Shown: piece after piece, positions 14,359 to 16,316 of the stretch
Numbering within the stretch: position 1 is the stretch's first letter
How the letters are laid out: each line of letters starts with the position of its first letter
Source: Deltaproteobacteria bacterium
GTDB taxonomy: Bacteria > Desulfobacterota > Dissulfuribacteria > Dissulfuribacterales > QOAL01
NCBI GenBank assembly: GCA_027067775.1
Contig: JAMOVK010000098.1
Location: forward strand, 1-33,857
Length of the DNA: 33,857 nucleotides
Direction: 5' to 3'
Notes under the pieces: model-generated
What the model saw: only the letters and a program-made list of their open reading frames with translations
Told to the model about the DNA's origin: nothing
The model's database searches: none
Made by a program: the position numbers and the translations under genes

Positions 14359-15102
14359 GTGAAGGTAAATAGGTCCGATAAACCAAATTATGTAACAGAT
14401 GAGGAGAGAAGGGAATTTTTGAAATTGGGCCTCAAAATAACAGGCGTTCTTGCTGGAGGGTCAGTTTTATCCCTTATTCCCCTGCCAGAGGATGAGGCCA
14501 ATGCCCTGGTTGAGCTTGATGGCTATGAAAAGACTCCATACAAGCCACACTACGTTATGGTTATCAGGCAAAACCATTGTGTTGACTGCGAAAAATGCAA
14601 AGAGGCTTGTGTAAAGACCAATCACGTGCCGGATTATGGCTATAGAACCACAATCTTGGAGAAACTGGTAGAAGACGATGAGGGCAAAAAATTCCCCGTA
14701 TTCATGCCGGTTCTATGCAACCATTGTTTGAATCCTCCCTGTGTCAGAGTTTGTCCAACGAAGGCCACAACCAAAGATCCAAAGACTGGTATAGTGGTAA
14801 TGCATTATCACAAATGTATTGGTTGCAAAACATGTATGGCTGCCTGTCCATATAATGCCAGGTATTTCAATGAAGAGAAAAGGGCTATTGACAAATGTAA
14901 TTTCTGCTGGGATACAAGACTTTCCAAGGGCGAGAAGCTTACGGCTTGTGCAGCTGCGTGTCCGGCCCATGTGAGGGTTTTTGGCGATTTCTCAGATCGC
15001 AACAGCGAGGTGTGGAAATTGGTTCACCAGCCTGACAAGGCTGTTTGGGTCCTTAGACCCGAAACTGGTGCCAAGCCATGTATCTTTTACATGAATGACT
15101 AA
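14359..15102 (+). CDS. Tat-exported ferredoxin-like protein with four [4Fe-4S] sites (NrfC/PsrB/DsrO type)
   Basis: A 247-residue electron-transfer subunit beginning at a GTG 9 nt after AGGAGG. A twin-arginine signal RREFLK (17-22) precedes a hydrophobic segment, so it is exported folded to the periplasm. Four cysteine sets are visible: C74-C77-C80-C84, C120-C123-C128-C132, C153-C156-C159-C163, and C180-C183-C197-C201. This is the layout of Fe-S subunits of DMSO-reductase-type and Dsr/Hmc/Nrf membrane complexes. Such proteins normally sit beside an NrfD-like membrane partner, but here the neighbours are a triheme cytochrome and a small membrane protein. The only NrfD homologue is at 28639. 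It is probably part of a periplasmic electron relay; the substrate is unknown. Confidence 0.93.
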   Translation: MKVNRSDKPNYVTDEERREFLKLGLKITGVLAGGSVLSLIPLPEDEANALVELDGYEKTPYKPHYVMVIRQNHCVDCEKCKEACVKTNHVPDYGYRTTILEKLVEDDEGKKFPVFMPVLCNHCLNPPCVRVCPTKATTKDPKTGIVVMHYHKCIGCKTCMAACPYNARYFNEEKRAIDKCNFCWDTRLSKGEKLTACAAACPAHVRVFGDFSDRNSEVWKLVHQPDKAVWVLRPETGAKPCIFYMND

Positions 15103-15121
15103 CCATACAGGGGGAAGACAA

Positions 15122-15523
15122 ATGATTAATAAAGGTTTGCAGATATTTCTTGGTGTACTGGTTCTTTGTTGTTTTCTAGCAGTAGGGGCAGCATCTGGTG
15201 AAGAAGAAGAGGATTATCCACAAGAACCGATTATATTTACAAAGCCGGTGAAGGCAGTTGTGTTTGATCACAAACTTCACATAGAAAACGGTCTTGATTG
15301 TGACTCATGTCATGATGATCCCTTTGAGATGGCTGCAGGAACAGCCGAAGAAAATAAAGATTTCAATATGAAGGCCCTTTACCAGGGCAAGTATTGCGGT
15401 CAATGTCACGACGGTGATAGCGCCTTTGCATCAAATACCAGATGTACCCTTTGTCATATTGGTGTTAAAGGTTATAATAAGATGACTGGTGTAAAGCCAA
15501 AGGGCCATGGTGGACATGAGTAG
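15122..15523 (+). CDS. triheme c7-type periplasmic cytochrome
   Basis: A 133-residue cytochrome with a cleavable signal (hydrophobic residues 6-24). It has three CXXCH heme sites: CDSCH (60-64), CGQCH (92-96) and CTLCH (108-112). Extra histidines that could be distal ligands occur in FDHKLH (H50, H53) and in the C-terminal GHGGHE. The VVFDHKLH-CDSCH spacing is that of triheme c7/c3-like domains. I start at the ATG at 15122, which has GGGGGAA 5-11 nt upstream, rather than at an ATG at 15095 that overlaps the Fe-S gene. It follows the Fe-S gene by 19 nt, so the two are one operon. The cytochrome probably exchanges electrons with the Fe-S protein. Confidence 0.93.
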   Translation: MINKGLQIFLGVLVLCCFLAVGAASGEEEEDYPQEPIIFTKPVKAVVFDHKLHIENGLDCDSCHDDPFEMAAGTAEENKDFNMKALYQGKYCGQCHDGDSAFASNTRCTLCHIGVKGYNKMTGVKPKGHGGHE

Positions 15524-15569
15524 TTGGCTTTAACCTGAGAATTTTGCAAATAGATTTTTATCATGCAGA

Positions 15570-15600
15570 GGGCAGGAGATTTTCTTCTGCCCTTCTTTTC
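15570..15600 (+). terminator. probable (leaky) terminator after the triheme cytochrome gene
   Basis: Arms GGGCAGGAGA (15570-15579) and TCTTCTGCCC (15583-15592) pair along 10 bp with one G-U. They enclose a 3-nt loop and are followed by TTCTTTTC. The interrupted T-tract may allow read-through into the small membrane-protein gene at 15618. Confidence 0.6.
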
Positions 15601-15617
15601 AAGGACGATACAGTATT

Positions 15618-15785
15618 ATGGACAACCTCCTTTCTCTTCTTTTGGTTCTGGTTATTTGGATTGCTATTAATCGCTGGCTTCTGCCAAAACTTGGTCTGCC
15701 ATCTTGAGGTGCTCCTGTTGATGTCGGTCGGCATCTAGAGGAGGACAAGGCCCAGAGCGGAAATAAAAAATCTGTTCCTACCTGA
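15618..15785 (+). CDS. candidate small membrane selenoprotein (in-frame UGA at 15705-15707)
   Basis: A reading frame of 55 codons, starting at the ATG at 15618 and ending at the TGA at 15783, is interrupted once by a TGA at codon 30. Residues 4-18 are strongly hydrophobic (LLSLLLVLVIWIAI) and are followed by NRWLLPKLGLPS, so the protein has one N-terminal membrane helix. After the TGA comes GAPVDVGRHLEEDKA and a short hydrophilic tail. The sequence just after the UGA folds into a hairpin with a GGUC apical loop starting 18 nt downstream, the geometry I recall for the E. coli fdhF SECIS. I therefore read codon 30 as selenocysteine. An AAGGA lies 12 nt upstream of the ATG. If the TGA is a true stop, the product is a 29-residue peptide. 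No sel genes are in this window. Confidence 0.6.
15712..15743 (+). promoter_or_regulatory. SECIS-like stem-loop directing UGA-to-selenocysteine
   Basis: A lower stem CTCCT (15712-15716) pairs with AGGAG (15739-15743). Above it comes a G.G mismatch, one U-A pair (15718/15737) and a U.U mismatch (15719/15736). The upper stem GATGTC (15720-15725) pairs with GGCATC (15730-15735), including one U.G. The apical tetraloop is GGTC (15726-15729). Exactly 18 nt separate the UGA from the loop. Bacterial SelB recognises an apical GU-containing loop at about this distance. Confidence 0.6.
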
Positions 15786-15799
15786 AGCGGATCCAGCTG

Positions 15800-15820
15800 T
15801 TCGATTGGGGACCAATCGAA
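15800..15820. repeat. perfect 9-bp inverted repeat
   Basis: Arms TTCGATTGG (15800-15808) and CCAATCGAA (15812-15820) enclose GGA. The hairpin starts 14 nt after the stop of the candidate selenoprotein. On the plus strand it is followed by an A-run, not T, so it is not a canonical plus-strand terminator. It could still be an mRNA 3'-end stabiliser. Confidence 0.55.
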
Positions 15821-16316
15821 AAAATAGGGTTTGCCTTTATTGCTCCGGTAACGAAGCACTCGGTCTATAACGCTCCAAAGCCGCTCGCTCATGCTCGCTA
15901 GATGGAGGTTTCAGCCGCTTTGCTTCACCTAGAATCCCTAGGCCCTGTTCCCAAATGTCTAATCAAACCCCTATCCTTGCCCTATTCATTTGATGAATCT
16001 TGTTACTATACTAAGTCCGTAATTCCCTATGTTTCATGTTTTTATTTTATTAACTCTGCTAACAAATGTCTTAGCAATGCCGTTAATTTATATGAATGTT
16101 TTTAGGGGCTAGGGCTAATCTCAGTAAGTCCATTACTACAACTGTCTTTTCTAGAATGCCTCGGTTTTATGCAATCAAAGGTGAAAATACGGAACGTGAT
16201 GGCCTAAAATTGCGTTGTTTTTAAAGTCCATATTTGTTGATCTTCTAATTCTAGCTGTATGCCAATAAATATTGGTACAAAAGCTATATGTTATAGGAGA
16301 AAGGGTCTAGATCGGT

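Follow-up and report, generated by a model that had tools for sequence, protein, structure and literature searches.

The window analysed here, a stretch of 33,857 nucleotides, contains a complete coding frame of 69 amino acids at positions 15618–15827 of the forward strand, on which all of the features described below lie. An orthologous frame is present in nine of the nine genus members examined. The product reads MDNLLSLLLVLVIWIAINRWLLPKLGLPS-U-GAPVDVGRHLEEDKAQSGNKKSVPT-U-SGSSCSIGDQSKK, and the frame encodes, in this order, one membrane helix, a first in-frame UGA (UGA1, 15705–15707), a second in-frame UGA (UGA2, 15783–15785), and the stop codon TAG (15825–15827). A possible ribosome-binding site, AAGGA, lies at 15601–15605, and similarly placed purine-rich sites occur in many relatives. 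The initial annotation had described an ATG frame at 15618 with a hydrophobic helix and an in-frame UGA at codon 30, all of which are present. It had also reported a "single in-frame TGA" and a frame of 55 codons ending at 15785. This frame is correct up to codon 55, but its end coordinate is not: the assumed stop at 15783–15785 is the second UGA, and the frame runs to 15827, giving the true length of 69 residues.

Judging from the sequence and its relatives, the product of 15618–15827 is almost certainly a selenoprotein, and we are highly confident that both UGA positions specify selenocysteine (Sec). The comparisons described below show that both UGAs are kept and apparently read through, that a SECIS-like hairpin follows each of them, and that the decoding genes are present in the genome. 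The gene thus appears, with similarly high confidence, to encode a two-Sec, single-pass membrane selenoprotein, a derived form within an apparently undescribed family of proteins of about 45–90 residues.

The AF2 model consists of a single helix spanning residues 2–24 (15621–15689), with block pLDDT values of 87–88 for residues 1–20, followed by a disordered tail. Hydropathy and charge over 80 members agree with a membrane-spanning helix followed by net positive residues, and the charge after the helix exceeds that before it in 87.5% of the members. According to the positive-inside rule, the basic flank resides on the cytoplasmic side. The higher charge after the helix therefore suggests a cytoplasmic tail, and the C-terminus is probably cytoplasmic. 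The helix would anchor the protein in the N-out orientation, with the basic tail in the cytoplasm.

How is this protein distributed, and what is conserved in it? We scanned the GTDB species genomes with a pattern lying entirely upstream of the Sec codon, which therefore introduces no bias toward UGA or Cys, and kept 80 of the 118 relatives found. The Sec site is UGA in 79 of these 80 species loci and Cys in one (L102), a degree of conservation that excludes a chance frame. A Cys lies four residues after the Sec in 69 of the 79 UGA loci and five residues after it in two; the eight UGA loci with Cys at neither spacing all belong to the window's genus, considered at UGA1. The one-Sec relatives share the motif N-[RK]-W-[LIV]-[LF]-P-[KR]-[LM]-G-x-x-[ST]-U-x4-C, the most conserved part of which is the helix–tail junction N-[RK]-W-x-[LF]-P-[KR]-x-G, and the median length of the family is 55 residues. 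The scan loci belong to the Desulfuromonadia, Syntrophobacteraceae, other "Deltaproteobacteria", Planctomycetota, and Spirochaetota, together with one KSB1 bin and one bin labelled Chloroflexi. In a search of 60 related genomes, the UGA-containing protein was found in every genome of the same genus and across the order. When all 46 genomes of the window's order were searched with a profile, the family was detected in 35, always with UGA, and 167 of the 395 genomes sampled from the phylum (42%) carry it. Each of the phylum matches listed has one internal UGA, except for that in G170, which stops short of the Sec codon; the UGA is present there on further reading. No Cys form was seen among the 395 sampled genomes of the phylum. 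Elsewhere, Cys occupies the UGA position in the homologues L102, L191, L193, L196, L201, and L205.

UGA1, encoding the putative Sec30, corresponds in position to the single Sec of the family, the partner Cys of which has been lost in the window's genus. Homologues carry either UGA or Cys at the codon 30 site, conservation continues past the UGA in the relatives, and selA, selB, selC, and selD are all found in the genome. These results support the proposal, made in the initial annotation, of an unannotated small membrane selenoprotein with Sec at codon 30 and a SECIS element after it. A distant relative in G170 (L219, at about 132–310), MWDLLILIAVIALWVFISRFIFPKMGVPV-U-GVPSSPSQDEMKNKTTNCACSLPQKKKK, resembles the window's genus in having no Cys near its Sec and CAC farther along.

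The initial annotation nevertheless under-called the gene, as the canonical Sec-x4-Cys motif is located at the presumed stop, away from codon 30. UGA2, which had been read as a stop, very probably specifies a second Sec (Sec56), and it starts the motif U-SGSS-C. Among the nine genus members (the window and eight further loci), both UGAs are invariant, and the final stop varies between TAG and TAA at the equivalent position. Immediately past UGA2, 13 codons are conserved (SGSSCSIGDQSKK in the window and DGPSCSIGGQSKK in the relatives). The codon differences within the genus amount to 514 synonymous and 116 nonsynonymous before UGA1, 249 and 322 between UGA1 and UGA2, and 93 and 77 past UGA2, and the third codon positions are the most variable in all three segments. 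Beyond the final stop, general conservation was not seen among the genus members compared. On the family post-Sec profile, the post-UGA2 segment of the window reaches 18.7 bits (p = 6e-4). When scored against the profile of the one-Sec relatives, the UGA2 segments of the genus range from 16.5 to 20.7 bits, and the UGA1 segment of the window scores −5.7 bits. The canonical Sec unit is therefore assigned to UGA2.

The tail would have arisen by duplication of a Sec-x4-Cys cassette, the first copy of which then lost its Cys. This history is the simplest and is considered probable. Independent acquisition of the second cassette ranks below duplication, because the position and loop of the cassette-2 hairpin match those of the one-Sec relatives.

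Next, we analysed the hairpins downstream of the two UGAs. Hairpin 1 (15709–15746) has a folding energy of −19.9 kcal/mol (z between about −2 and −3 relative to dinucleotide shuffles) and displays a GGUC apical loop at 15726–15729, exactly 18 nt past UGA1, as initially annotated. The resemblance to the SECIS of E. coli fdhF noted at the time holds as well, since in our K-12 fdhF control GGTC likewise lies 18 nt after the UGA. Hairpin 2 (15800–15820; z −3.2) has a 9-bp stem and a GGA loop at 15809–15811, 23 nt past UGA2. In contrast to the fdhF SECIS, hairpins of the UGA2 type have a GGA, GGG, or GUC loop at 23 nt, and the encoded proteins are unrelated to the fdhF product. The published constraints on bacterial SECIS elements place the apical loop 16–37 nt past the UGA, with an early G (PMC13188914); at both UGAs, the hairpin has a small apical loop within 16–37 nt and a G in its first two bases. 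A SECIS-like hairpin with p < 0.05 was found in 65% of 78 members, as compared to 5.8% of 240 control TGAs (other TGAs of the same loci), and falls below significance in about a third of the members. The corresponding Mann–Whitney p of about 1e-30 is no strict probability, because the members are related. The UGA2-type hairpin can be aligned without gaps in 23 sequences, picked partly for sharing its position, and standard pairs account for 98% at its seven inner positions, as compared to 15–43% once the partner strand is slid by 1 to 3 bases. Most of these inner pairs show more than one standard pair type, which represents compensatory change. Rfam yielded nothing in the window at gathering scores.

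The genome of the window encodes SelB (381 bits), SelA (612 bits), a tRNA-Sec (selC) with the anticodon UCA, and a selD gene that carries its own in-frame UGA. Each UGA would be decoded by SelB and tRNA-Sec. Since the SelB cut-off is exceeded in 353 of the 395 genomes of the window's phylum, co-occurrence with SelB is uninformative there. In place of the phylum, we searched the 45 genomes of the planctomycete order containing L102 for the family and SelB. SelB is present in 21 of the 23 genomes with the UGA form and in none of the six with only Cys or other forms (five Cys and one TGG; Fisher p = 5.9e-5, with the genomes treated as independent despite their kinship). The two UGA-form genomes without SelB are G429, possibly owing to an incomplete assembly, and G447, in which the copy is a fragment without the helix or Cys. 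Closely similar proteins contain Sec in G466 and G467, which have SelB, and Cys in G468 and G469, which do not. Two planctomycete copies, for which SelB was not found, are apparently decaying: in L195, the Sec site reads TGG and a TGA lies within the helix region, and L204 has neither helix nor Cys. Some SelB-containing planctomycetes carry a Sec copy together with a second copy devoid of UGA (L205, with Cys; G455 and G456).

Could the two UGAs be explained otherwise? It is improbable that only UGA1 encodes Sec and that UGA2 is a genuine stop, with the downstream similarity reflecting a terminator or another RNA element. Termination at UGA2 would yield a product of 55 residues, the median length of the family, and the hairpin past UGA2 could be a terminator stem; however, no U-run follows this hairpin, UGA2 is never UAA or UAG in nine species, whereas the next stop varies, and the 13 codons beyond it fit the post-Sec profile, with the third positions varying the most. 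A protein ending there would, moreover, be devoid of the Sec–Cys pair that is present in 71 of the 71 other UGA-form loci. Far less probable still is the absence of recoding at either UGA, which would leave a 29-residue membrane peptide, a pseudogene, or a chance open frame. With translation table 11, the frame does end after 29 codons and would be skipped by gene callers, but the conservation past the UGA across phyla, the read-through Cys replacements, the covarying hairpin, and the tracking of UGA with SelB all oppose this explanation. An altered genetic code, with UGA read as another residue such as tryptophan, would account for an in-frame UGA without termination and is hardly credible in a genome with a full Sec system: the conserved Trp residues of the window protein are encoded by TGG, and genomes without SelB mostly have Cys in place of UGA (five genomes), a single apparently decayed copy having Trp.

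The functional context was examined in the neighbouring genes. Upstream, at 14359–15523, lie a ferredoxin-type FeS subunit (tetrathionate-reductase/DsrO-like) and a triheme cytochrome c7, and a strong hairpin followed by TTCTTTTC (15568–15594; fold z −3.6) separates the cytochrome c7 gene from that of the selenoprotein. A simple terminator scan did not call this hairpin. It is a possible terminator, and the selenoprotein gene may therefore be its own transcription unit. The FeS/cytochrome c7 pair also precedes the selenoprotein gene in several of its order relatives, some of which have an NrfD-type gene close by. No consistent operon partner was found across the clades: the window's order has cytochrome c7/FeS genes as neighbours, some Desulfuromonadia have sensor kinases, and the neighbours otherwise vary. 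Considering this variability and the separating hairpin, we drew no function from the context.

We tentatively favour a membrane-tethered selenium/sulfur redox role, which the U-x4-C motif by itself suggests. Sec56 and Cys61, the two ends of this motif, might form a reversible selenenylsulfide at the membrane surface, and the pair might reduce a thiol, a peroxide, or an oxidised partner, or relay electrons. Sec30 could conceivably act as a second redox or metal ligand. Somewhat less likely, the same selenoprotein may bind metals or chalcogens (for example, soft metals or in selenide delivery) or serve as a structural small subunit of a respiratory complex. A selenol and a thiol are soft-metal ligands, and the gene stands just after the FeS/cytochrome c7 pair in the window's genus as well as in the order relatives mentioned above; however, the strong hairpin parts it from the upstream genes in the window, and this neighbourhood is absent from the Desulfuromonadia, Spirochaetota, and Planctomycetota. 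A thioredoxin-like selenoprotein (UxxC/CxxU) was ruled out by the U-x4-C motif and the model of one helix with a disordered tail. No PDB chain matched the family profile.

Among eukaryotic selenoproteins, SELENOK and SELENOS are likewise small, span the membrane once, and carry their Sec on a disordered tail; this Sec is located close to the extreme C-terminus, and the SECIS is in the 3′ UTR. The window protein resembles them in architecture only, by analogy. Searches of NCBIfam (June 2026 release) and Pfam with the window protein and seven other members returned no meaningful match. In the part of the 2026 catalogue of 119 families and subfamilies accessible to us, nothing fits by name, motif, or domain (PMC13188914). 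The families of Haft and Tolstoy (2025) appear in that part, most with NCBIfam models (PMC13188914). Judged against the catalogue and NCBIfam, the family is likely to be undescribed. It is like the bacterial selenoproteins catalogued there in its in-frame UGA, downstream SECIS-like hairpin, Sec/Cys replacement, and neighbouring Cys, and unlike them in being a short single-helix protein with U-x4-C, neither of which is named in the same part of the catalogue (PMC13188914). TsoB is listed there as UxxxxU, but it is a rhodanese/DsbD-like fusion (PMC13188914). The deep-Sep authors state that their method may miss selenoproteins without Cys homologues (PMC12013277). The present family may have escaped homology-based searches because it is so short and has so few Cys homologues.

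On balance, we consider it reasonably probable that this nearly Sec-only family of miniature membrane selenoproteins, common among Desulfobacterota-type anaerobes and Planctomycetota, constitutes a general membrane-surface selenol redox system, in which one genus has duplicated the Sec cassette to give a protein of 69 residues with two Sec. An apparently missing family would be added to the bacterial selenoproteome. It also exposes a blind spot, since such genes stay hidden both from methods that require Cys homologues and from those that impose a minimum gene length. The Sec-to-Cys swaps paired with the absence of SelB provide test pairs for why selenium is used, and the 210-base gene, with two UGAs and two putative SECIS elements, would offer a compact model of serial recoding.
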